This document shows, piece after piece, positions 3,679 to 64,000 of a stretch of DNA of 64,000 bases (position 1 is the first letter of the stretch; every line of letters starts with the position of its first letter). Made by a program: the position numbers and the translations under genes. The notes beneath the pieces are model-generated. The model ran no database searches and was not told the origin of the DNA. It worked only from the letters and a program-made list of their open reading frames with translations. Origin of the DNA: Actinernus sp. WN-2022 (Eukaryota; Cnidaria; Anthozoa; Actiniaria; Actinernidae); contig JAOWCC010001634.1 in the NCBI GenBank assembly GCA_030867875.1, positions 4,945,877 to 5,009,876 of the forward strand. The letters run 5' to 3'.

Positions 3679-4206
3679 CTTAGCACACGTCTCTCCTCAG
3701 GATTTGATTCAACACGACGCTACCTTATTAATAAGTTTGGTTCACACTAGCGACATAACATAAACCTTAGCACAGTCATGTCTCTCCTCAGGATTCGATT
3801 CAACACGACGCTACCTTATTAATAAGCTTGGTTCACTAGCGACATAACATAAACCTTAGCACAGTCATGTCTCTCCTCAGGATTTGATTCAACACGACGC
3901 CACCTTATTAATAAGCTTGGTTCACACTAGCGACATACCATAAACCTTAGCACACGTCCTCCTCAGGATTTGATTCAACACGACGCTACCTTATTAATAA
4001 GCTTGGTTCACACTAGCGACATAACATAAACCTTAGCGCACGTCTCTGCTCAGGATTTGATTCAACACGACGCTACCTTATTAATAAGCTTGGTTCACAC
4101 TAGCGACATAACATAAACCTTAGCGCACGTCTCTCCTCAGGATTTGATTCAACACGATGCTACCTTATTAATAAGCTTGGTCCACACTAGCGACATAACA
4201 TAAACC
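3679..4206. repeat. Minisatellite, six units of 86-91 bp
   Basis: Units start at about 3679, 3766, 3855, 3946, 4032 and 4119, each beginning CTTAGC. Each holds CTCAGGATTTGATTCAACACGA (with minor variation), then the near-palindromic CCTTATTAATAAG, then a CACTAGCGACATA tail. Units differ by point changes (for example CACAGTCATG versus CACACGT) and small indels, so this array is older or less homogenised than the satellites downstream. Confidence 0.9.
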
Positions 4207-7063: not shown

Positions 7064-7285
7064 CTGTACGGCCCCGCAAATGATCCCAGGCCCGCAAATG
7101 ATCCCGGCCCGCAAATGATCCCAAAATCGTCCCGGAAATGATCCCGGCCCGCAAATGATCCCAAAATCGTCCCGGAAATGATCCCAGCCGAAAATACAGA
7201 ATGGCAACGGATTTGGGATTGCGAGACTTTTTATTTGGATTTCTATATGTTTTTATCTTATGCTTATAAATTTGCATATATACAT
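7064..7285 (+). repeat. Left inverted arm with internal subrepeats
   Basis: Starts CTGTACGGCCCCGCAAATGA. The subrepeats run to about 7190, then a unique tail containing GGCAACGGATTTGGGATTGC. It pairs with 8435-8661. Confidence 0.75.
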
Positions 7286-8434: not shown

Positions 8435-8661
8435 AAAAATATACGCAAAATGATAATAAGCATAAGAAAACCATATGAAGAATTGCAAATCAGAAAAGTC
8501 TCGCAATCCAAAATCCGTTGCCATTCCATATTTTCAGCCGGGATCATTTCCGGGACGATTTTGGGATCATTTGCGGGCCGGGATAATTTCCGGGACGATT
8601 TTGGGATCATTTGCGGGCCGGGATCATTTGCGGGCCTGGGATCATTTGCGGGGCCGTACAG
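8435..8661 (-). repeat. Right inverted arm
   Basis: Reverse complement of the left arm, with scattered substitutions (for example GATAATTTCC in place of GATCATTTCC near 8581). Divergence is slightly higher in the AT-rich inner tail. Confidence 0.75.
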
Positions 8662-8665
8662 ACTT

Positions 8666-9074
8666 CATGAGAAAATAAGTCCTGAATAGCAAATGAGAAC
8701 GCTTTCCATACGTTTCTGACCTGAAATAACCCAAACTTCAGCCTTTATTTAATGGCAGCCGATTCCACTTAATCTACCCCCAAATTAGTGAAAATTGCAG
8801 CGTAACATCCCTACTTTAAAATCCCGTGTTTACATTTTTGTGGATATCAGTTTTTAAACCCCAAAATTGGCAATATTTTCAGGGCATAGACCAGTTTGAG
8901 GCAGTTTTCTTTGTTATTTGGCATGTGCGCTGGAGCAGAAATTTAAATCCAGCGCGCTTGATCGTGTCGCGTGACTAAGTAATGTCGCCTGATTCTGCCC
9001 GATGTATTGGCCGTGAATAATATTTTTGTGATCATCAGCCAATCAATATTTCTGTTAATTTGTATTCAGTGGTA
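8666..9074. other. Non-coding stretch, nothing recognised
   Basis: Mixed AT-rich sequence without open frame or repeat structure. It ends at the TAA microsatellite. Confidence 0.5.
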
Positions 9075-9101
9075 TAATAATAATAATAATAATAATAATA
9101 A
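9075..9101. repeat. (TAA)9 microsatellite
   Basis: Nine uninterrupted TAA units followed by GTAGCATTTATATAGCGCC. Confidence 0.95.
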
Positions 9102-9106
9102 GTAGC

Positions 9107-9150
9107 ATTTATATAGCGCCATTTCCATTTAGCCCAATGGCGCTTTACAA
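9107..9150. repeat. TATAGCGCC...GGCGCTTTACA hairpin repeat
   Basis: AGCGCCATT (9115-9123) pairs perfectly with AATGGCGCT (9136-9144) around a 12-base loop, flanked by TTTATAT and TTACA. A TAA microsatellite followed by this hairpin is a dispersed-repeat signature I associate with many marine invertebrate genomes; that association is from memory. Confidence 0.6.
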
Positions 9151-9213
9151 TCTCATGTCGTGCTAAAATAAGTCTAGGACTAGAACTATTAAGTTATATA
9201 AATTACATGCATG

Positions 9214-9233
9214 TATATATATATATATATATA
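9214..9233. repeat. (TA)10 microsatellite
   Basis: Uninterrupted TA run. Its last TA forms the left target site of the adjoining MITE. Confidence 0.95.
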
Positions 9234-9387
9234 CAGTCGATGCCAAAAAGGTTATCCAGCAGAACATAATATAATACTATAATATCCATTGTTTTGGGCT
9301 ATTGTCTAGGCTAAAACAATAGGCCAAAACAATGGATATTAAAGTATTATATTATGTTCTGCTGGAGAACCTTTTTGGCATCGACTG
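9234..9387. mobile_element. 154-bp MITE with 64-bp inverted repeats and TA duplications (Tc1/mariner-like)
   Basis: 9234-9297 and the reverse complement of 9324-9387 agree at about 62 of 64 positions. Termini are CAGTCGATGCC...GGCATCGACTG with TA on both sides (9232-9233 and 9388-9389). TA duplication with CAGT-type ends is the Tc1/mariner pattern. The 26-base loop contains CTATTGT and ACAATAG and is itself weakly palindromic. The near-perfect arms suggest a young insertion. Confidence 0.82.
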
Positions 9388-9389
9388 TA

Positions 9390-9525
9390 TATACATACAT
9401 CCTGTGTCCAAAGTGCAGAGTTGCCATAAAGCCATTATGGTGATAGCCGAGATGGCGCATTGTATCATGATTCCATGTTTGTTCAACCTAGCGAATTGGA
9501 CAGATGTGGATGATTGTATATATAT
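9390..9525. other. Unique spacer between MITE and array 1
   Basis: About 130 bases without recognisable features, ending in GATTGTATATATATAT, the TA tract next to array 1. Confidence 0.5.
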
Positions 9526-9527
9526 AT

Positions 9528-9691
9528 GAGGACTGTTAACACAAAAGGAGGACTCACGTCTAACACCCCTCTGAGAAGAATACCGGTTAAAGACTGAACA
9601 AAAAAAACGAGAAAAGCCGGGAGACCAAAAACTGCGTGCATGCCAGCCAAGTATGGTGGGTAGTAGTAGCCTTTTTGTGATAACGACGCTC
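9528..9691 (+). repeat. Left terminal E module of array 1
   Basis: 164 bp, preceded directly by a TA tract. The left end is GAGGACT + GTTAACACAAAAGG; the right end read in reverse is GAGCGTC + GTTATCACAAAAAGG. The inverted ends are imperfect but clearly paired. Confidence 0.75.
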
Positions 9692-12501
9692 ATGATGTGC
9701 GAAGTTTTACCTATAGTTCGGGTTGCATTCCCAGGAGGCAGTGCAGAACCGGTTGCACTGATATCATCGGACCAATCGCCGTTTCAGAATGAACCGGCGC
9801 ACGTACACTGAAATGCAAAGTAGGATAACTACATGAGCCGGCACTTCTAAACGATTTAGCATTAGTTAAGCATCGTAAAGAGCGATAAAACTCGCGAGCG
9901 CGCCTATATGCTTTTAATAAAGAGAGAAAATACTGACGTATCGACATCGTAACGTCTGAGAATTCATGAGAGCATATGGCTTTTAATAAAGAGAGAAAAT
10001 TCTGAAATATCGACACAAGTTTGCTATCATGAGGACTGTTAACACAAAAGGAGGACTCACGTCTAACACCCCTCTGAGAAGAATACCGGTTAAAGACTGA
10101 ACAAAAAAAACGAGAAAAGCCGGGAGACCAAAAACTGCGTGCATGCCAGCCAAGTATGGTGGGTAGTAGTAGCCTTTTTGTGATAACGACGCTCATGATG
10201 TGCGAAGTTTTACCTATAGTTCGGGTTGCATTCCCAGGAGGCAGTGCAGAACCGGTTGCACTGATATCATCGGACCAATCGCCGTTTCAGAATGAACCGG
10301 CGCACGTACACTGAAATGCAAAGTAGGATAACTACATGAGCCGGCACTTCTAAACGATTTAGCATTAGTTAAGCATCGTAAAGAGCGATAAAACTCGCGA
10401 GCGCGCCTATATGCTTTTAATAAAGAGAGAAAATACTGACGTATCGACATCGTAACGTCTGAGAATTCATGAGAGCATATGGCTTTTAATAAAGAGAGAA
10501 AATTCTGAAATATCGACACAAGTTTGCTATCATGAGGACTGTTAACACAAAAGGAGGACTCACGTCTAACACCCCTCTGAGAAGAATACCGGTTAAAGAC
10601 TGAACAAAAAAAACGAGAAAAGCCGGGAGACCAAAAACTGCGTGCATGCCAGCCAAGTATGGTGGGTAGTAGTAGCCTTTTTGTGATAACGACGCTCATG
10701 ATGTGCGAAGTTTTACCTATAGTTCGGGTTGCATTCCCAGGAGGCAGTGCAGAACCGGTTGCACTGATATCATCGGACCAATCGCCGTTTCAGAATGAAC
10801 CGGCGCACGTACACTGAAATGCAAAGTAGGATAACTACATGAGCCGGCACTTCTAAACGATTTAGCATTAGTTAAGCATCGTAAAGAGCGATAAAACTCG
10901 CGAGCGCGCCTATATGCTTTTAATAAAGAGAGAAAATACTGACGTATCGACATCGTAACGTCTGAGAATTCATGAGAGCATATGGCTTTTAATAAAGAGA
11001 GAAAATTCTGAAATATCGACACAAGTTTGCTATCATGAGGACTGTTAACACAAAAGGAGGACTCACGTCTAACACCCCTCTGAGAAGAATACCGGTTAAA
11101 GACTGAACAAAAAAAACGAGAAAAGCCGGGAGACCAAAAACTGCGTGCATGCCAGCCAAGTATGGTGGGTAGTAGTAGCCTTTTTGTGATAACGACGCTC
11201 ATGATGTGCGAAGTTTTACCTATAGTTCGGGTTGCATTCCCAGGAGGCAGTGCAGAACCGGTTGCACTGATATCATCGGACCAATCGCCGTTTCAGAATG
11301 AACCGGCGCACGTACACTGAAATGCAAAGTAGGATAACTACATGAGCCGGCACTTCTAAACGATTTAGCATTAGTTAAGCATCGTAAAGAGCGATAAAAC
11401 TCGCGAGCGCGCCTATATGCTTTTAATAAAGAGAGAAAATACTGACGTATCGACATCGTAACGTCTGAGAATTCATGAGAGCATATGGCTTTTAATAAAG
11501 AGAGAAAATTCTGAAATATCGACACAAGTTTGCTATCATGAGGACTGTTAACACAAAAGGAGGACTCACGTCTAACACCCCTCTGAGAAGAATACCGGTT
11601 AAAGACTGAACAAAAAAAACGAGAAAAGCCGGGAGACCAAAAACTGCGTGCATGCCAGCCAAGTATGGTGGGTAGTAGTAGCCTTTTTGTGATAACGACG
11701 CTCATGATGTGCGAAGTTTTACCTATAGTTCGGGTTGCATTCCCAGGAGGCAGTGCAGAACCGGTTGCACTGATATCATCGGACCAATCGCCGTTTCAGA
11801 ATGAACCGGCGCACGTACACTGAAATGCAAAGTAGGATAACTACATGAGCCGGCACTTCTAAACGATTTAGCATTAGTTAAGCATCGTAAAGAGCGATAA
11901 AACTCGCGAGCGCGCCTATATGCTTTTAATAAAGAGAGAAAATACTGACGTATCGACATCGTAACGTCTGAGAATTCATGAGAGCATATGGCTTTTAATA
12001 AAGAGAGAAAATTCTGAAATATCGACACAAGTTTGCTATCATGAGGACTGTTAACACAAAAGGAGGACTCACGTCTAACACCCCTCTGAGAAGAATACCG
12101 GTTAAAGACTGAACAAAAAAAACGAGAAAAGCCGGGAGACCAAAAACTGCGTGCATGCCAGCCAAGTATGGTGGGTAGTAGTAGCCTTTTTGTGATAACG
12201 ACGCTCATGATGTGCGAAGTTTTACCTATAGTTCGGGTTGCATTCCCAGGAGGCAGTGCAGAACCGGTTGCACTGATATCATCGGACCAATCGCCGTTTC
12301 AGAATGAACCGGCGCACGTACACTGAAATGCAAAGTAGGATAACTACATGAGCCGGCACTTCTAAACGATTTAGCATTAGTTAAGCATCGTAAAGAGCGA
12401 TAAAACTCGCGAGCGCGCCTATATGCTTTTAATAAAGAGAGAAAATACTGACGTATCGACATCGTAACGTCTGAGAATTCATGAGAGCATATGGCTTTTA
12501 A

Positions 12502-13764
12502 GGTTACCGTATACCTTCGCGGGTGTCTCTCGCAAATAAAATCGCACGCGCATCATTTTAAAGGAAAGTATAGAAATCTATATATCACTGGAAAGGTTAT
12601 ATAATGTAGAATGCGCTGAAATGTTTTTTTTTGCACAAATATTACATTTTCAGTAAATGCTAAGGCAACAAACGCAAAAAAGACGAGTCTCACAGAAGTG
12701 AATTTATGTCCCTCCACGTTCGCGCCTACGGACGATTCCGCTGCATAATGTCAATCAGCACATGATGGCCTGTCAAAGGGTGTGAGCGTTTTTTAATATT
12801 TTACTTTGTTCAAATGCAATTCATCTTCAAAGTTTCAATCGAAATAGTTTCTGTGTTTCATCACGGCAAGTACTCTTATAAGAAAAATAATTAAAATATC
12901 GCTAAACGCTCACACACTTTGGTTCATATGTAGCTCCTCTAACACTAGGCCAAGTTTCATCAAGATCTAACAAGTCTTCATACCCTATAAATTCACCCAA
13001 AGACAGTGAATACGCATAAAAATCTATCAGCGTTTTTGGCTTCTGAAGGTTAGGAAACACATCACACCTCATCAAAGCAAACGTCAACACTTAAACCAAC
13101 CAGCCAATTATATGTAAGGATCCCCGGAGCTTATGAATCAAGTCCAGAAATTCGCGGGAAATTAGTACGTGGCTCAAATTGCATAAGAACATACATACTA
13201 GTGTCGTGTCACAAATATTCAAAAGAGCGTTGTGTTATGGCCAAAACTAGAGATAATGCGCAAAAGGGGAAAAAGAAAGGTAAATCAACGGGTTGTACCA
13301 AGAAGGGAGAGGGCCGGATATCGAAAACTAAATCGCGTCGAAAGGCAACGCCGCAAACAAGAGCGAAGGGAAAAGCGAGTGGCAGGCAACCTCTCCCTGG
13401 ATTGACCACGGCCCAGTTTGGAAACTGCGAGTCACCCAAGACATTAGAATCGATATACCGGTAAATTAAACGCTATAAAGTCACTAAACTCACGAGTCAC
13501 GGCTCACTGTGAGTCTGAAGCTCCGGATGTAGTTTCCCGCAAAAATTCAGCGGGGTGCCGTGGCACGTAATGGGATCAGAGGGATTTATCACGCCGAAGC
13601 GATTTATTTACTTTCCTTCAAAGTACGTTTTTTTCTAATATCTCGCAAACTTTTGCATGTTTAAAACATTTTTTTTCTGAAAGATGAAGATCAATCCATC
13701 AATTTCAAAAGAATTACAAAAAAAATTTTTTAAAGAAAACATGCCGCGAAGGTATACGGTAACC
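12502..13764. mobile_element. 1263-bp non-autonomous DNA transposon with TTAA target duplications, inserted in one satellite monomer
   Basis: A 21-bp perfect terminal inverted repeat (12502-12522 and 13744-13764; begins GGTTACCGTATACC) is flanked by TTAA at 12498-12501 and 13765-13768. Removing the element and one TTAA restores the exact 503-bp monomer (CTTTTAATAAAG). TTAA duplication is typical of piggyBac and Kolobok elements; no transposase is present to decide. A subterminal inverted pair, GTGTGAGCGTTT (near 12779) and AAACGCTCACAC (near 12904), lies inside. The element appears in a single monomer, so it jumped after the array formed. Confidence 0.88.
13237..13464 (+). CDS. Short Lys/Arg-rich frame inside the TTAA element
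   Basis: 75 codons from ATG 13237 to a stop at 13462-13464. The first two thirds are strongly basic (for example AQKGKKKGKSTGCTKKGEG), resembling a nuclear or nucleic-acid-binding tail, followed by a neutral end. An upstream GTG extends the frame but is not a usable eukaryotic start. I recognise no domain. It may be a fragment of a captured or decayed gene, or chance. A second small frame on the other strand (12902-13090) is even less supported. Confidence 0.2.
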   Translation: MAKTRDNAQKGKKKGKSTGCTKKGEGRISKTKSRRKATPQTRAKGKASGRQPLPGLTTAQFGNCESPKTLESIYR

Positions 13765-14819
13765 TTAATAAAGAGAGAAAATTCTGAAATATCGACACAA
13801 GTTTGCTATCATGAGGACTGTTAACACAAAAGGAGGACTCACGTCTAACACCCCTCTGAGAAGAATACCGGTTAAAGACTGAACAAAAAAAAACGAGAAA
13901 AGCCGGGAGACCAAAAACTGCGTGCATGCCAGCCAAGTATGGTGGGTAGTAGTAGCCTTTTTGTGATAACGACGCTCATGATGTGCGAAGTTTTACCTAT
14001 AGTTCGGGTTGCATTCCCAGGAGGCAGTGCAGAACCGGTTGCACTGATATCATCGGACCAATCGCCGTTTCAGAATGAACCGGCGCACGTACACTGAAAT
14101 GCAAAGTAGGATAACTACATGAGCCGGCACTTCTAAACGATTTAGCATTAGTTAAGCATCGTAAAGAGCGATAAAACTCGCGAGCGCGCCTATATGCTTT
14201 TAATAAAGAGAGAAAATACTGACGTATCGACATCGTAACGTCTGAGAATTCATGAGAGCATATGGCTTTTAATAAAGAGAGAAAATTCTGAAATATCGAC
14301 ACAAGTTTGCTATCATGAGGACTGTTAACACAAAAGGAGGACTCACGTCTAACACCCCTCTGAGAAGAATACCGGTTAAAGACTGAACAAAAAAAACGAG
14401 AAAAGCCGGGAGACCAAAAACTGCGTGCATGCCAGCCAAGTATGGTGGGTAGTAGTAGCCTTTTTGTGATAACGACGCTCATGATGTGCGAAGTTTTACC
14501 TATAGTTCGGGTTGCATTCCCAGGAGGCAGTGCAGAACCGGTTGCACTGATATCATCGGACCAATCGCCGTTTCAGAATGAACCGGCGCACGTACACTGA
14601 AATGCAAAGTAGGATAACTACATGAGCCGGCACTTCTAAACGATTTAGCATTAGTTAAGCATCGTAAAGAGCGATAAAACTCGCGAGCGCGCCTATATGC
14701 TTTTAATAAAGAGAGAAAATACTGACGTATCGACATCGTAACGTCTGAGAATTCATGAGAGCATATGGCTTTTAATAAAGAGAGAAAATTCTGAAATATC
14801 GACACAAGTTTGCTATCAT

Positions 14820-14983
14820 GAGGACTGTTAACACAAAAGGAGGACTCACGTCTAACACCCCTCTGAGAAGAATACCGGTTAAAGACTGAACAAAAAAAAC
14901 GAGAAAAGCCGGGAGACCAAAAACTGCGTGCATGCCAGCCAAGTATGGTGGGTAGTAGTAGCCTTTTTGTGATAACGACGCTC
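14820..14983 (+). repeat. Right terminal E module of array 1
   Basis: Same 164-bp module as at 9528. It stops exactly at GCTCAT and runs into TATATATATA, so the array closes on a complete module rather than at a random point. Confidence 0.75.
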
Positions 14984-14997
14984 ATATATATATATAT
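14984..14997. repeat. TA tract joining array 1 and array 2
   Basis: ATATATATATATAT lies between the closing GCTC of array 1 and the CTAGCATG that opens array 2. No other sequence separates the two satellites. Confidence 0.9.
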
Positions 14998-15060
14998 CTA
15001 GCATGTTTTCACAAAAGGGGGTTTTAGGTTCTAGGGCTCCTTTTGTGGAAACAGCGTAGA
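14997..15060 (+). repeat. First 64-bp hairpin module H
   Basis: Begins TCTAGCATGTTTTCACAAAAGG and ends with the inverted form CCTTTTGTGGAAACAGCGTAGA; 18 of 22 paired positions agree. It opens array 2 directly after the TA tract and recurs at every 895-bp junction. Confidence 0.85.
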
Positions 15061-15893
15061 TCTTGTGTGCCTTTAAGCTTTAAAAGCCAGTTACTCGTGT
15101 TTTTGCCGCTTTCTTGAAAGGGCAAATGACAGTTTACGACTTTTCTGGCCTTTCTTTCCAATAATTGATCTGTAGGTATTTTATGAGGGTGGTGTGGGGT
15201 GGGGAGGAGTAGTTCAAAAAATTTCGCGAAAAACCAACTTTGCCTGACGTATGGCGCAACGATTTGCTTAGTGAAAGATGTACATTTTCCACTAGGTCTG
15301 AGAAAAAAGGTGCATTTTTGGGATCAAAACGTTGAAAAGTGAGTTACTGGCTTTTAAAGCCAACAAGTACGCATTAATTTACTTGTGTAACCTAAATTTC
15401 AAAGTGGCGCCATTTCTCGAACTTTTAATGGATTTCGATGCACTATACGGCAATACAACGGCCTCTTCCTGTACTTTCAGACTGGCGTGCCAGTTTTGCC
15501 CTATTTGGAGTAGAAAATCCGAAAATGTTTTTTTTTTTGTAACCTAACCTTAATCTCTCAAAGTTACTTGTGTACCCTAATATCTTCAAAGTGGCGCCAT
15601 TTCTCGAGCTTTCAATGGATTTCGATGCACTATACGGCAATACAACGTTCTCTTCATGTAGATTGCGTTTAATGGGTGGAAGTTTCCTGTATTTTGAGTA
15701 ACAATACCAGAAAATGGCCTTTTTCTAACCTAAGCATAACCTCTAGGTCTCAAATAAAGAAATTATGGGATAGATCTCACACAAGTAAATTATGGGATAG
15801 AAAGGCCATTAAAGTCTTCAACTGTCATTTGCCGTTTCAAGAAAACGGCAAAAACACGAGTTACTGGCTTTTAAAGCTAAAGGCACACAAGAT
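15061..15893 (+). repeat. Monomer 1 of array 2, the most divergent edge copy
   Basis: 833 bp. It has an 11-T run at 15528-15538 where most copies read GTG plus eight T, has CTCGAAC where all others read CTCGACC (about 15417-15423), and a single-base T junction where other short junctions have A. Confidence 0.9.
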
Positions 15894-18800
15894 TCTTGTG
15901 TGCCTTTAAGCTTTAAAAGCCAGTTACTCGTGTTTTTGCCGCTTTCTTGAAAGGGCAAATGACAGTTTACGACTTTTCTGGCCTTTCTTTCCAATAATTG
16001 ATCTGTAGGTATTTTATGAGGGTGGTGTGGGGTGGGGAGGAGTAGTTCAAAAAATTTCGCGAAAAACCAACTTTGCCTGACGTATGGCGCAACGATTTGC
16101 TTAGTGAAAGATGTACATTTTCCACTAGGTCTGAGAAAAAAGGTGCATTTTTGGGATCAAAACGTTGAAAAGTGAGTTACTGGCTTTTAAAGCCAACAAG
16201 TACGCATTAATTTACTTGTGTAACCTAAATTTCAAAGTGGCGCCATTTCTCGACCTTTTAATGGATTTCGATGCACTATACGGCAATACAACGGCCTCTT
16301 CCTGTACTTTCAGACTGGCGTGCCAGTTTTGCCCTATTTGGAGTAGAAAATCCGAAAATGTTTTTTTTTTGTAACCTAACCTTAATCTCTCAAAGTTACT
16401 TGTGTACCCTAATATCTTCAAAGTGGCGCCATTTCTCGAGCTTTCAATGGATTTCGATGCACTATACGGCAATACAACGTTCTCTTCATGTAGATTGCGT
16501 TTAATGGGTGGAAGTTTCCTGTATTTTGAGTAACAATACCAGAAAATGGCCTTTTTCTAACCTAAGCATAACCTCTAGGTCTCAAATAAAGAAATTATGG
16601 GATAGATCTCACACAAGTAAATTATGGGATAGAAAGGCCATTAAAGTCTTCAACTGTCATTTGCCGTTTCAAGAAAACGGCAAAAACACGAGTTACTGGC
16701 TTTTAAAGCTAAAGGCACACAAGATCTAGCATGTTTTCACAAAAGGGGGTTTTAGGTTCTAGGGCTCCTTTTGTGGAAACAGCGTAGATCTTGTGTGCCT
16801 TTAAGCTTTAAAAGCCAGTTACTCGTGTTTTTGCCGCTTTCTTGAAAGGGCAAATGACAGTTTACGACTTTTCTGGCCTTTCTTTCCAATAATTGATCTG
16901 TAGGTATTTTATGAGGGTGGTGTGGGGTGGGGAGGAGTAGTTCAAAAAATTTCGCGAAAAACCAACTTTGCCTGACGTATGGCGCAACGATTTGCTTAGT
17001 GAAAGATGTACATTTTCCACTAGGTCTGAGAAAAAAGGTGCATTTTTGGGATCAAAACGTTGAAAAGTGAGTTACTGGCTTTTAAAGCCAACAAGTACGC
17101 ATTAATTTACTTGTGTAACCTAAATTTCAAAGTGGCGCCATTTCTCGACCTTTTAATGGATTTCGATGCACTATACGGCAATACAACGGCCTCTTCCTGT
17201 ACTTTCAGACTGGCGTGCCAGTTTTGCCCTATTTGGAGTAGAAAATCCGAAAATGTGTTTTTTTTGTAACCTAACCTTAATCTCTCAAAGTTACTTGTGT
17301 ACCCTAATATCTTCAAAGTGGCGCCATTTCTCGAGCTTTCAATGGATTTCGATGCACTATACGGCAATACAACGTTCTCTTCATGTAGATTGCGTTTAAT
17401 GGGTGGAAGTTTCCTGTATTTTGAGTAACAATACCAGAAAATGGCCTTTTTCTAACCTAAGCATAACCTCTAGGTCTCAAATAAAGAAATTATGGGATAG
17501 ATCTCACACAAGTAAATTATGGGATAGAAAGGCCATTAAAGTCTTCAACTGTCATTTGCCGTTTCAAGAAAACGGCAAAAACACGAGTTACTGGCTTTTA
17601 AAGCTAAAGGCACACAAGATCTAGCATGTTTTCACAAAAGGGGGTTTTAGGTTCTAGGGCTCCTTTTGTGGAAACAGCGTAGATCTTGTGTGCCTTTAAG
17701 CTTTAAAAGCCAGTTACTCGTGTTTTTGCCGCTTTCTTGAAAGGGCAAATGACAGTTTACGACTTTTCTGGCCTTTCTTTCCAATAATTGATCTGTAGGT
17801 ATTTTATGAGGGTGGTGTGGGGTGGGGAGGAGTAGTTCAAAAAATTTCGCGAAAAACCAACTTTGCCTGACGTATGGCGCAACGATTTGCTTAGTGAAAG
17901 ATGTACATTTTCCACTAGGTCTGAGAAAAAAGGTGCATTTTTGGGATCAAAACGTTGAAAAGTGAGTTACTGGCTTTTAAAGCCAACAAGTACGCATTAA
18001 TTTACTTGTGTAACCTAAATTTCAAAGTGGCGCCATTTCTCGACCTTTTAATGGATTTCGATGCACTATACGGCAATACAACGGCCTCTTCCTGTACTTT
18101 CAGACTGGCGTGCCAGTTTTGCCCTATTTGGAGTAGAAAATCCGAAAATGTGTTTTTTTTGTAACCTAACCTTAATCTCTCAAAGTTACTTGTGTACCCT
18201 AATATCTTCAAAGTGGCGCCATTTCTCGAGCTTTCAATGGATTTCGATGCACTATACGGCAATACAACGTTCTCTTCATGTAGATTGCGTTTAATGGGTG
18301 GAAGTTTCCTGTATTTTGAGTAACAATACCAGAAAATGGCCTTTTTCTAACCTAAGCATAACCTCTAGGTCTCAAATAAAGAAATTATGGGATAGATCTC
18401 ACACAAGTAAATTATGGGATAGAAAGGCCATTAAAGTCTTCAACTGTCATTTGCCGTTTCAAGAAAACGGCAAAAACACGAGTTACTGGCTTTTAAAGCT
18501 AAAGGCACACAAGATCTAGCATGTTTTCACAAAAGGGGGTTTTAGGTTCTAGGGCTCCTTTTGTGGAAACAGCGTAGATCTTGTGTGCCTTTAAGCTTTA
18601 AAAGCCAGTTACTCGTGTTTTTGCCGCTTTCTTGAAAGGGCAAATGACAGTTTACGACTTTTCTGGCCTTTCTTTCCAATAATTGATCTGTAGGTATTTT
18701 ATGAGGGTGGTGTGGGGTGGGGAGGAGTAGTTCAAAAAATTTCGCGAAAAACCAACTTTGCCTGACGTATGGCGCAACGATTTGCTTAGTGAAAGATGTA

Positions 18801-21800
18801 CATTTTCCACTAGGTCTGAGAAAAAAGGTGCATTTTTGGGATCAAAACGTTGAAAAGTGAGTTACTGGCTTTTAAAGCCAACAAGTACGCATTAATTTAC
18901 TTGTGTAACCTAAATTTCAAAGTGGCGCCATTTCTCGACCTTTTAATGGATTTCGATGCACTATACGGCAATACAACGGCCTCTTCCTGTACTTTCAGAC
19001 TGGCGTGCCAGTTTTGCCCTATTTGGAGTAGAAAATCCGAAAATGTTTTTTTTTTGTAACCTAACCTTAATCTCTCAAAGTTACTTGTGTACCCTAATAT
19101 CTTCAAAGTGGCGCCATTTCTCGAGCTTTCAATGGATTTCGATGCACTATACGGCAATACAACGTTCTCTTCATGTAGATTGCGTTTAATGGGTGGAAGT
19201 TTCCTGTATTTTGAGTAACAATACCAGAAAATGGCCTTTTTCTAACCTAAGCATAACCTCTAGGTCTCAAATAAAGAAATTATGGGATAGATCTCACACA
19301 AGTAAATTATGGGATAGAAAGGCCATTAAAGTCTTCAACTGTCATTTGCCGTTTCAAGAAAACGGCAAAAACACGAGTTACTGGCTTTTAAAGCTAAAGG
19401 CACACAAGATCTAGCATGTTTTCACAAAAGGGGGTTTTAGGTTCTAGGGCTCCTTTTGTGGAAACAGCGTAGATCTTGTGTGCCTTTAAGCTTTAAAAGC
19501 CAGTTACTCGTGTTTTTGCCGCTTTCTTGAAAGGGCAAATGACAGTTTACGACTTTTCTGGCCTTTCTTTCCAATAATTGATCTGTAGGTATTTTATGAG
19601 GGTGGTGTGGGGTGGGGAGGAGTAGTTCAAAAAATTTCGCGAAAAACCAACTTTGCCTGACGTATGGCGCAACGATTTGCTTAGTGAAAGATGTACATTT
19701 TCCACTAGGTCTGAGAAAAAAGGTGCATTTTTGGGATCAAAACGTTGAAAAGTGAGTTACTGGCTTTTAAAGCCAACAAGTACGCATTAATTTACTTGTG
19801 TAACCTAAATTTCAAAGTGGCGCCATTTCTCGACCTTTTAATGGATTTCGATGCACTATACGGCAATACAACGGCCTCTTCCTGTACTTTCAGACTGGCG
19901 TGCCAGTTTTGCCCTATTTGGAGTAGAAAATCCGAAAATGTGTTTTTTTTGTAACCTAACCTTAATCTCTCAAAGTTACTTGTGTACCCTAATATCTTCA
20001 AAGTGGCGCCATTTCTCGAGCTTTCAATGGATTTCGATGCACTATACGGCAATACAACGTTCTCTTCATGTAGATTGCGTTTAATGGGTGGAAGTTTCCT
20101 GTATTTTGAGTAACAATACCAGAAAATGGCCTTTTTCTAACCTAAGCATAACCTCTAGGTCTCAAATAAAGAAATTATGGGATAGATCTCACACAAGTAA
20201 ATTATGGGATAGAAAGGCCATTAAAGTCTTCAACTGTCATTTGCCGTTTCAAGAAAACGGCAAAAACACGAGTTACTGGCTTTTAAAGCTAAAGGCACAC
20301 AAGATCTAGCATGTTTTCACAAAAGGGGGTTTTAGGTTCTAGGGCTCCTTTTGTGGAAACAGCGTAGATCTTGTGTGCCTTTAAGCTTTAAAAGCCAGTT
20401 ACTCGTGTTTTTGCCGCTTTCTTGAAAGGGCAAATGACAGTTTACGACTTTTCTGGCCTTTCTTTCCAATAATTGATCTGTAGGTATTTTATGAGGGTGG
20501 TGTGGGGTGGGGAGGAGTAGTTCAAAAAATTTCGCGAAAAACCAACTTTGCCTGACGTATGGCGCAACGATTTGCTTAGTGAAAGATGTACATTTTCCAC
20601 TAGGTCTGAGAAAAAAGGTGCATTTTTGGGATCAAAACGTTGAAAAGTGAGTTACTGGCTTTTAAAGCCAACAAGTACGCATTAATTTACTTGTGTAACC
20701 TAAATTTCAAAGTGGCGCCATTTCTCGACCTTTTAATGGATTTCGATGCACTATACGGCAATACAACGGCCTCTTCCTGTACTTTCAGACTGGCGTGCCA
20801 GTTTTGCCCTATTTGGAGTAGAAAATCCGAAAATGTGTTTTTTTTGTAACCTAACCTTAATCTCTCAAAGTTACTTGTGTACCCTAATATCTTCAAAGTG
20901 GCGCCATTTCTCGAGCTTTCAATGGATTTCGATGCACTATACGGCAATACAACGTTCTCTTCATGTAGATTGCGTTTAATGGGTGGAAGTTTCCTGTATT
21001 TTGAGTAACAATACCAGAAAATGGCCTTTTTCTAACCTAAGCATAACCTCTAGGTCTCAAATAAAGAAATTATGGGATAGATCTCACACAAGTAAATTAT
21101 GGGATAGAAAGGCCATTAAAGTCTTCAACTGTCATTTGCCGTTTCAAGAAAACGGCAAAAACACGAGTTACTGGCTTTTAAAGCTAAAGGCACACAAGAA
21201 TCTTGTGTGCCTTTAAGCTTTAAAAGCCAGTTACTCGTGTTTTTGCCGCTTTCTTGAAAGGGCAAATGACAGTTTACGACTTTTCTGGCCTTTCTTTCCA
21301 ATAATTGATCTGTAGGTATTTTATGAGGGTGGTGTGGGGTGGGGAGGAGTAGTTCAAAAAATTTCGCGAAAAACCAACTTTGCCTGACGTATGGCGCAAC
21401 GATTTGCTTAGTGAAAGATGTACATTTTCCACTAGGTCTGAGAAAAAAGGTGCATTTTTGGGATCAAAACGTTGAAAAGTGAGTTACTGGCTTTTAAAGC
21501 CAACAAGTACGCATTAATTTACTTGTGTAACCTAAATTTCAAAGTGGCGCCATTTCTCGACCTTTTAATGGATTTCGATGCACTATACGGCAATACAACG
21601 GCCTCTTCCTGTACTTTCAGACTGGCGTGCCAGTTTTGCCCTATTTGGAGTAGAAAATCCGAAAATGTGTTTTTTTTGTAACCTAACCTTAATCTCTCAA
21701 AGTTACTTGTGTACCCTAATATCTTCAAAGTGGCGCCATTTCTCGAGCTTTCAATGGATTTCGATGCACTATACGGCAATACAACGTTCTCTTCATGTAG

Positions 21801-61992: not shown

Positions 61993-64000
61993 TCTTGTGT
62001 GCCTTTAAGCTTTAAAAGCCAGTTACTCGTGTTTTTGCCGCTTTCTTGAAAGGGCAAATGACAGTTTACGACTTTTCTGGCCTTTCTTTCCAATAATTGA
62101 TCTGTAGGTATTTTATGAGGGTGGTGTGGGGTGGGGAGGAGTAGTTCCAAAAATTTCGCGAAAAACCAACTTTGCCTGACGTATGGCGCAACGATTTGCT
62201 TAGTGAAAGATGTACATTTTCCACTAGGTCTGAGAAAAAAGGTGCATTTTTGGGATCAAAACGTTGAAAAGTGAGTTACTGGCTTTTAAAGCCAACAAGT
62301 ACGCATTAATTTACTTGTGTAACCTAAATTTCAAAGTGGCGCCATTTCTCGACCTTTTAATGGATATCGATGCACTATACGGCAATACAACGGCCTCTTC
62401 CTGTACTTTCAGACTGGCGTGCCAGTTTTGCCCTATTTGGAGTAGAAAATCCGAAAATGTGTTTTTTTTGTAACCTAACCTTAATCTCTCAAAGTTACTT
62501 GTGTACCCTAATATCTTCAAAGTGGCGCCATTTCTCGAGCTTTCAATGGATTTCGATGCACTATACGGCAATACAACGTTCTCTTCATGTAGATTGCGCT
62601 TAATGGGTGGAAGTTTCCTGTATTTTGAGTAACAATACCAGAAAATGGCCTTTTTCTAACCTAAGCATAACCTCTAGGTCTCAAATAAAGAAATTATGGG
62701 ATAGATCTCACACAAGTAAATTATGGGATAGAAAGGCCATTAAAGTCTTCAACTGTCATTTGCCGTTTCAAGAAAACGGCAAAAACACGAGTTACTGGCT
62801 TTTAAAGCTAAAGGCACACAAGATCTAGCATGTTTTCACAAAAGGGGGTTTTAGGTTCTAGGGCTCCTTTTGTGGAAACAGCGTAGATCTTGTGTGCCTT
62901 TAAGCTTTAAAAGCCAGTTACTCGTGTTTTTGCCGCTTTCTTGAAAGGGCAAATGACAGTTTACGACTTTTCTGGCCTTTCTTTCCAATAATTGATCTGT
63001 AGGTATTTTATGAGGGTGGTGTGGGGTGGGGAGGAGTAGTTCAAAAAATTTCGCGAAAAACCAACTTTGCCTGACGTATGGCGCAACGATTTGCTTAGTG
63101 AAAGATGTACATTTTCCACTAGGTCTGAGAAAAAAGGTGCATTTTTGGGATCAAAACGTTGAAAAGTGAGTTACTGGCTTTTAAAGCCAACAAGTACGCA
63201 TTAATTTACTTGTGTAACCTAAATTTCAAAGTGGCGCCATTTCTCGACCTTTTAATGGATTTCGATGCACTATACGGCAATACAACGGCCTCTTCCTGTA
63301 CTTTCAGACTGGCGTGCCAGTTTTGCCCTATTTGGAGTAGAAAATCCGAAAATGTGTTTTTTTTGTAACCTAACCTTAATCTCTCAAAGTTACTTGTGTA
63401 CCCTAATATCTTCAAAGTGGCGCCATTTCTCGAGCTTTCAATGGATTTCGATGCACTATACGGCAATACAACGCTCTCTTCATGTAGATTGCGTTTAATG
63501 GGTGGAAGTTTCCTGTATTTTGAGTAACAATACCAGAAAATGGCCTTTTTCTAACCTAAGCATAACCTCTAGGTCTCAAATAAAGAAATTATGGGATAGA
63601 TCTCACACAAGTAAATTATGGGATAGAAAGGCCATTAAAGTCTTCAACTGTCATTTGCCGTTTCAAGAAAACGGCAAAAACACGAGTTACTGGCTTTTAA
63701 AGCTAAAGGCACACAAGATCTAGCATGTTTTCACAAAAGGGGGTTTTAGGTTCTAGGGCTCCTTTTGTGGAAACAGCGTAGATCTTGTGTGCCTTTAAGC
63801 TTTAAAAGCCAGTTACTCGTGTTTTTGCCGCTTTCTTGAAAGGGCAAATGACAGTTTACGACTTTTCTGGCCTTTCTTTCCAATAATTGATCTGTAGGTA
63901 TTTTATGAGGGTGGTGTGGGGTGGGGAGGAGTAGTTCCAAAAATTTCGCGAAAAACCAACTTTGCCTGACGTATGGCGCAACGATTTGCTTAGTGAAAGA
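61993..64000 (+). repeat. Variant trimer block, monomers 54-56, cut by the window edge
   Basis: Full haplotype, then a standard copy with one private change (ACGCTCTC at 63474), then a copy with the first variant before the sequence ends. Confidence 0.75.

Follow-up and report, generated by a model that had tools for sequence, protein, structure and literature searches.

It has long been asked how satellite DNA comes to occupy new sites on chromosomes, and the question is raised in a particular form by a 64-kb window (the whole stretch analysed here) of the sea anemone Actinernus sp. WN-2022. The window, part of a 149-Mb contig (JAOWCC010001634.1) in a 1.39-Gb genome assembly, contains two adjoining satellite arrays that share their end sequences and have cores without meaningful similarity (best blastn match between core1 and core2, E = 0.84). 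The relatives listed for one transposon protein of this assembly (at least 120) are, where named, anthozoan (Stylophora, Acropora, Pocillopora, Porites, Xenia), except for one entry labelled as a gammaproteobacterial MAG. A preliminary description, made from the letters alone, had noted both facts, proposed a single family of TA-targeting inverted-repeat elements behind satellites with different cores, and suggested looking for single-copy insertions, empty sites and a transposase with matching ends. Our analysis traces both arrays to a small hairpin, H, comparable to a miniature inverted-repeat transposable element (MITE). The same anatomy recurs at many loci of the genome, array borders fall at the outer ends of H in an AT-containing target, and one insertion is exact at both ends. 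We consider it probable that these satellites are multimeric transposons, in which H is combined with unrelated cores and the mobile form is H(core-H)k. With this family, the passage from transposon to satellite can be tested within one genome, on near-identical young copies with exact array borders.

Anatomy of the two arrays

Four ends had been described, each reading inward from AT through seven variable bases into a common motif. Reading of the sequence and a motif search of the window found all four in their places:

9526, plus strand: left end motif of array 1, ATGAGGACTGTTAACACAAAAGG
14985, minus strand: right end motif of array 1, ATGAGCGTCGTTATCACAAAAAG
14996, plus strand: left end motif of array 2, ATCTAGCATGTTTTCACAAAAGG
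15061, minus strand: right-side motif of the first array 2 hairpin, ATCTACGCTGTTTCCACAAAAGG

The seven-base gap is constant at all four ends, array 1 has one extra A at its right end, and the first three bases agree within each pair (GAG/GAG, CTA/CTA). A chance resemblance, for which nothing speaks except the AT-richness of the flanks, has a negligible probability: the pattern AT-N7-GTTWNCACAAAARG has 114 matches in the window against a mean of 0.00 in 100 shuffles, the motif GTTWNCACAAAAGG has 14342 + 14364 matches in the 1.39-Gb genome against 278 + 278 for the reversed pattern (about 50 times commoner), and with TATATAT in front it has 481 + 481 matches (962) against 0 + 0 for the control. 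The excess over chance is real, and the end sequences are confirmed.

On the other hand, the inverted repeats are more than brackets around a core. They do lie at TA/AT-rich tracts, as proposed, and each pair represents the two ends of one hairpin H. Of the four ends described as independent, only three are outer borders, two belonging to array 1 and one, on the left, to array 2; the fourth is an internal boundary, because array 2 runs past position 64000 (for at least 10 kb beyond the window end, the extent of the flanking DNA fetched). The layout is as follows:

9517–9527, no strand: (TA)n tract bordering array 1 on the left; flank common with the right side up to 10 bp (sequence)
9528–14983, plus strand: array 1, nine H1 (164 bp) alternating with eight core1 (339 bp), a complete H1 first and last
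9528–9691, plus strand: first H1 hairpin, ends GAGGACT-GTTAACACAAAAGG and GAGCGTC-GTTATCACAAAAAGG facing each other (sequence and motif search)
9692–10030, plus strand: first core1, AT at both ends included
14820–14983, plus strand: last H1, the right border of array 1
14984–14997, no strand: (AT)7 shared by the two arrays where they meet, right of array 1 and left of array 2 (sequence)
14998–64000, plus strand: array 2, units of H2 (62 bp) and core2 (about 831 bp), a complete H2 first
14998–15059, plus strand: first H2 hairpin, the left border of array 2
15884–15902, no strand: H-less core-core junction CACACAAGA-T-TCTTGTGTG in the first unit of array 2
21191–49471 (span), no strand: seven H-less junctions CACACAAGA-A-TCTTGTGTG, starting at 21191, 23813, 27330, 28162, 28994, 48621 and 49453

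On either side of array 1, as on the left of array 2, the border is the outer end of an H adjoining (TA)n, and the H/core junctions inside the arrays have only AT on both sides. Six full units of array 1 (503 bp) are identical, one is 504 bp long and one is interrupted. In array 2, H2 is present at 48 of the 56 core anchors; the other eight junctions read AAGAATCTT (seven) or AAGATTCTT (one) in place of AAGAT-H2-ATCTT, and core2 is alike in the H2-filled and H-less units, with 8 variable sites across 54 units of 831 bp. Since a 114-bp inverted repeat (88.6% identity) stands at the ends of core2, H2 lies at the tip of a long palindrome, and it folds into a strong hairpin (z −20.67). A 6-bp palindromic target-site duplication (TSD; TCATGA, AGATCT) was considered and rejected, as it fits the inside of arrays 1 and 2 and neither their outer borders nor family C.

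A genome-wide series of elements

We read 30 + 20 + 5 loci carrying the TATATAT-preceded motif (among the first 100 matches listed; several overlap). All loci picked with this pattern (L005–L034 and later ones) have a (TA)n flank by construction and cannot test target choice, because the pattern demands it. Most of them have the structure (TA)n-H(core-H)k-(AT)n, entire or partial, with k being 0, 1 or many. H is a complete hairpin that closes the element on either side and separates nearly all of its units; its copies within an element are near-identical and mostly direct (as judged from direct and inverted identities). Lone H (k = 0; L005, L015, L016, L020, L054) are non-coding, 59–62 or 162 bp long and have imperfect end pairs; one core is present at, for example, L009, L013, L019, L026, L041 and L045, and at least two cores lie within the piece read at L008, L011, L021, L023, L044 and L049. 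Low-copy insertions are present at many loci.

The commonest H lengths are 62, 61 and 164 bp, with ATGAG or ATCTA at the ends. The loci yielded three H families that differ in their cores, the third (L008, L041, L049) with GAGGCAT/GACGCAC ends, a 61-bp H and a core of about 340 bp. Neighbouring elements share one (TA)n tract in the window and at L008, L016, L037 and L039; at L047, L048, L050 and L052 only one recognisable end or unpaired ends were seen within the piece. The proposal of one inverted-repeat family behind satellites with different cores is thus upheld with regard to shared ends and TA/AT-rich sites, and revised with regard to anatomy, the common part being the hairpin H. Transposon ends mark nearly all boundaries between monomers, which places the lone hairpins, the single units and arrays exceeding 50 kb in one series.

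Among the loci read, four CAGG-type elements (L028, L030, L043, L052) have their flanks in common (TTTAGTAGAAAACATATATAT), and the three that are complete carry their H copies in inverted orientation; the four probably represent one insertion copied along with a larger repeat. A viral-contig scan for the hairpin gave a single match (L001), which we regard as chance given that its surroundings have no AT-bordered H.

Borders and target site

Borders and target were assessed only at loci picked by a core1 20-mer (383 + 122 genome matches; loci among the first 100 listed), a choice blind to the ends. Twelve of the 20 border windows of core1 arrays lie exactly at the outer end of H1, five in a foreign sequence, two in one common truncated H1 and one at a break inside the core. 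Complete H-core-H was found at six of the seven single-core1 loci; the seventh, L090, has its right border at H and, on the left, core-core joints leaving the piece. Altogether 25 of the 34 borders coincide with an H outer end (the other nine being the five, two and one just listed and one outside the piece fetched), so that the lack of the motif at other borders, named in advance as speaking against the family, was not observed at most of them.

The five arrays running into the same foreign sequence (L062, L066, L070, L072, L075, L082–L084) show it, where read, to break core1 at one point and to be kilobases long, with open frames of up to 309 residues. Two loci compared are 98.9% identical over 3.1 kb of it, and no H end was found in about 9.3 kb at the one locus read.

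These borders bear on the possibility that H are MITEs inserted into older, core-only satellites and carried passively ever since. Such an origin would account for the H-less junctions seen in both families (8 of 56 anchors in array 2; L085–L087 and L090), as well as for the location of H in arrays 1 and 2 at AT within the palindromes TCATGA and AGATCT. However, a passenger would neither set array borders at its own outer ends, as at the 25 of 34, nor yield H-core-H insertions. Moreover, the H-less joints have extra bases compared with a clean empty site: AAGA-A, -T or -AT-TCTT in array-2-type units, and TATC-AATT-GATG, TATC-AAT-GATG or TATC-TTTT-GATG in array-1-type units. By their sequence, the extra bases suggest end joining after excision; the H-less core-core joints could also be ancestral. 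Overall, we consider passive carriage unlikely; it may describe the origin of the unit rather than its present behaviour.

The flanks of the 25 H borders, compiled by hand from the loci read, have T at −1 (25/25), A at −2 (24/25), T (23) or C (2) at −3 and A at −4 (25/25); further outward they alternate purine and pyrimidine with few exceptions and are TA-rich. In 30 elements with both borders, also listed by hand, AT is common to both flanks in 30/30 and ATAT in 29/30; exactly four flanking bases are shared in 12 elements, fewer than eight in 15 and only two in one. The proposed TA target is correct as to the TA-rich tracts. AT and TA are indistinguishable inside (TA)n; AT or ATAT is favoured by the internal junctions, by the sites that are less regular and by the flanks of the 30 elements.

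One empty site is available as a paralog. The joined flanks of L092 (H1-core1-H1) match five contiguous paralogs, of which three were read; the closest, L095 (92%), has GCAGTTATGTATATGTATTTATACAA where L092 has GCAGTTATGTATAT, the element and ATATGTATTTATACAA. This alignment reads as an insertion whose two cuts fall exactly on the outer ends of H, with duplication of either ATAT or AT plus one microsatellite step, since the tract is seen to vary in L096 and L097. AT alone and ATAT both fit the target, because the only empty site reads as an ATAT duplication. A second query, made for L089, gave no full-length match and thus no empty site.

The nature of the flanks, (TA)n or alternating, and the joining of different elements in one tract (the window, L008, L016, L037, L039) would also be expected if insertion occurred by recombination between microsatellites, as suggested for the plant SaTar elements, with no H-specific enzyme involved. 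Yet AT is frequent throughout the units and the borders are at the H outer end; moreover, 4 of the 12 array borders at H lie in poorer tracts (L063, L064, L067, L078), and the empty site has just a short ATAT. Recombination of this kind is, in our opinion, very improbable.

Identity of the H copies

Seventeen one-core elements of two short-H families were available after twice-fetched loci and identical cores had been dropped (flanks are common to L028, L030 and L043, and L036 is a near-duplicate of L037). Their left-right H identity is 0.963 on average, compared with 0.817 when right ends were shuffled (standard deviation 0.020, maximum 0.901 of 2000). For the seven elements of family A the left-right identity within an element is 0.984, against 0.964 (left-left) and 0.958 (right-right) between loci, and 14 of the 5040 permutations were as high as observed. 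The aligned sequences thus show that the two H copies of one element resemble each other more than they resemble H of other loci, in the manner of long terminal repeats (LTRs). A composite of two H insertions simply hopping would predict the opposite order of identities.

Units of array 1, L044 (five units) and L088 (one unit), on three large contigs and with k = 8, 5 and 1, are 99.8–100% identical. Such identity suggests that the family either moved recently in forms of different k or expanded recently in place.

Candidates for an enzyme

A transposase with matching ends was not found, and the one ISL2EU-like family read has unrelated ends. Although at least 152 YqaJ matches were scored in the genome, the comparison with H involved the ends of this one family (AATTCGCCTTTTCC; L060/L061), which is accordingly rejected as a partner. 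Its members (L060 1703–5872, L061 1724–5893) are 4170 bp long, have 79-bp inverted ends and AATT sites, and are 100% identical on two contigs; judging from this identity, the element was probably active recently. An autonomous partner in the 15-kb core at L035/L036 was rejected as well, since a nested element without relation to H, about 14.6 kb long and Polinton-like to judge by the look of its frames, lies there inside a core1 copy. A ribozyme-bearing satellite was also considered; none of the 20 Rfam matches at E ≤ 1 in window positions 9000–18000 is a ribozyme, all 20 being below gathering scores.

Proposed mechanism

In the mechanism that we favour, H would be a tiny non-coding foldback (MITE-like) element with its inner motif seven bases in from AT, targeting AT in alternating TA-rich DNA. 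A trans-acting enzyme would recognise the inner motif and cut beside AT. Any H-to-H stretch might be able to move, since a full H, complete with its two ends, stands at almost every boundary between monomers; a lone H would correspond to k = 0, an H-core-H element to k = 1 and a satellite array to k ≥ 2. The number of units would increase or decrease via exchange between identical H copies or rolling-circle copying, which would keep the H copies alike, and H-to-H mobility combined with changing unit number would make the satellites multimeric transposons.

Several observations weigh against this mechanism. Nine of the 34 core1-picked border windows have no H border, albeit five of the nine share one foreign sequence. 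With one or two additional bases (AAT, ATT, AATT, TTTT), the H-less joints match neither a clean empty site nor a clean excision. The single empty site lies within a microsatellite that is itself variable (L096, L097). The 17 elements of the identity test are not all independent, the family A permutation becomes weaker (14/720) without L037, and the H copies are inverted, not direct, at three CAGG-type loci (L028, L030, L043) with shared flanks. No enzyme and no autonomous copy came from the L035/L036 core and the one ISL2EU-like family examined. Finally, the arrays may only grow in place and not move as a whole.

Growth in place, where only low-k forms (lone H and H-core-H) transpose and arrays arise later by unequal exchange between H, is in fact a milder form of the same explanation, and we rate it as a serious possibility short of an even chance. 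LTR elements form LTR-internal-LTR-internal-LTR tandems and provide a parallel. It agrees with k = 1 at six of the seven single-core1 loci sampled and with the near identity of units within an array, and an H at both array ends would follow automatically. What it leaves unexplained, unless by conversion or feedback from arrays, is the left-right likeness of H in one-core elements.

This likeness would be expected if H-core-H were the basic transposon, regenerated at each jump from a single-H circle or by overrunning rolling-circle copying, with arrays as products of multiple rounds. The spacing of units by a single H, the very homogeneous head-to-tail arrays and the strong H2 hairpin point in the same direction. 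On the other hand, no HUH, integrase or other enzyme is linked to H, and the lone H and the inverted CAGG form would require extra steps; this route thus appears doubtful. Equally doubtful, in our assessment, is a distinct type of transposon having complete foldbacks as terminal repeats, regenerated from one copy per jump (via a one-H circle or overrunning rolling-circle copying, at alternating TA sites), whose arrays would be replication multimers moving whole.

Relation to known systems

ATon elements of Aedes aegypti (PMC3422177) are small, non-coding, and have imperfect terminal inverted repeats (TIRs) and AT sites, with a T following the 5' A and an A preceding the 3' T; they comprise many families alike only in their end sequence, show aberrant empty sites with part of the AT missing, and no transposase was identified for them. 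H is similar in being short and non-coding with imperfect terminal inverted repeats, and in inserting at AT (found beside H at 24 of 25 core1-picked borders and on both flanks of 30/30 elements). It differs in its termini (ATGAG or ATCTA versus ATAGGCC) from ATon-I/-II, the groups compared by letters; further ATon end groups are reported (PMC3422177). As described there, ATon are single short elements; H-core-H, LTR-like H pairs and arrays are absent from that description.

SaTar of guayule and rice (PMC5907723) and MuTAnT of Medicago (PMC4486113) are small TIR elements at (TA)n tracts, where different elements occur side by side and (TA)n may expand at insertion. H shares the foldback form with MuTAnT (PMC4486113), and the (TA)n preference with both, its 25 core1-picked borders being alternating and TA-rich; the microsatellite-targeted stacking described for these plants (PMC5907723, PMC4486113) is thereby extended to an animal genome. 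SaTar and MuTAnT are Mutator-like, with 9–10 bp TSDs outside microsatellites (PMC5907723, PMC4486113), while in 15 of 30 H elements the shared flanking bases are fewer than eight, unlike Mutator-like TSDs of 8–11 bp. SaTar multimers (PMC5907723) join unrelated elements, whereas H arrays are head-to-tail H-core units. ISL2EU (PMC4482050) duplicates AT within the target A|AT|T; H resembles it in the AT duplication, with YqaJ-bearing elements abundant in the genome, and differs in its flanks (TAT|H|ATA, not AAT|H|ATT, as the AATT target would give).

Dispersed satellite-like arrays on non-autonomous elements with subterminal inverted repeats are known from the Helentron-borne oyster satellites Cg_HINE (PMC7492417), which H arrays resemble in this association. 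Cg_HINE has unique left and right modules around its array, a 3' palindrome, a TT site and no TSD (PMC7492417); H has AT on both sides, a near-symmetric hairpin at both ends and monomers carrying both ends. Non-autonomous inverted-repeat elements also gave rise to satellite arrays in Tetris TIR-220 (PMC4079207) and in Xmix/Xstir and miDNA4 of Xenopus (PMC9659126). As described, the repeats of these lie inside the element or the TIR, in contrast to the entire terminal hairpin at nearly every unit boundary seen here.

Compared by sequence and open frames, H elements are like LTR elements in having identical terminal repeats in each copy, solo repeats and tandems sharing one terminal repeat, and unlike them in that the repeat is a 61–164 bp hairpin at AT sites. 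Cassandra arrays are said to be an example of LTR element tandems. H appears closest to ATon in target and form and to SaTar/MuTAnT in microsatellite choice and stacking, and we assign it to no named family. No description of the H-core-H form was found in the literature searched, which did not extend to subscription papers and Repbase, and we make no claim of its absence.

Other features of the window

One core1 of array 1 is interrupted by an element outside the H family:

12502–13764, no strand: 1263-bp element between two TTAA, its inverted ends being GGTTACCGTATACCTTCGCGG (sequence)

It holds a short, very basic open frame. On the minus strand of array 1 (9528–14983), a stop-free frame of 191 residues runs round the 503-bp unit, exceeding the 95th percentile of shuffles (115). 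About 140 bp to the left of array 1, at 9237–9390, there is a palindromic TA-flanked element with CAGTCGATGCC... ends; similar ends stand directly beside the (TA)n of H elements in the flanks of L009, L023, L081 and L091. Short tandem blocks of the CCCGCAAATGATCCC type form an inverted pair at 7073–7189 and 8537–8652, about 1.4 kb apart, and are possibly the ends of another element. An 87-bp tandem repeat in six copies, unrelated to the H arrays, occupies positions 3679–4206.

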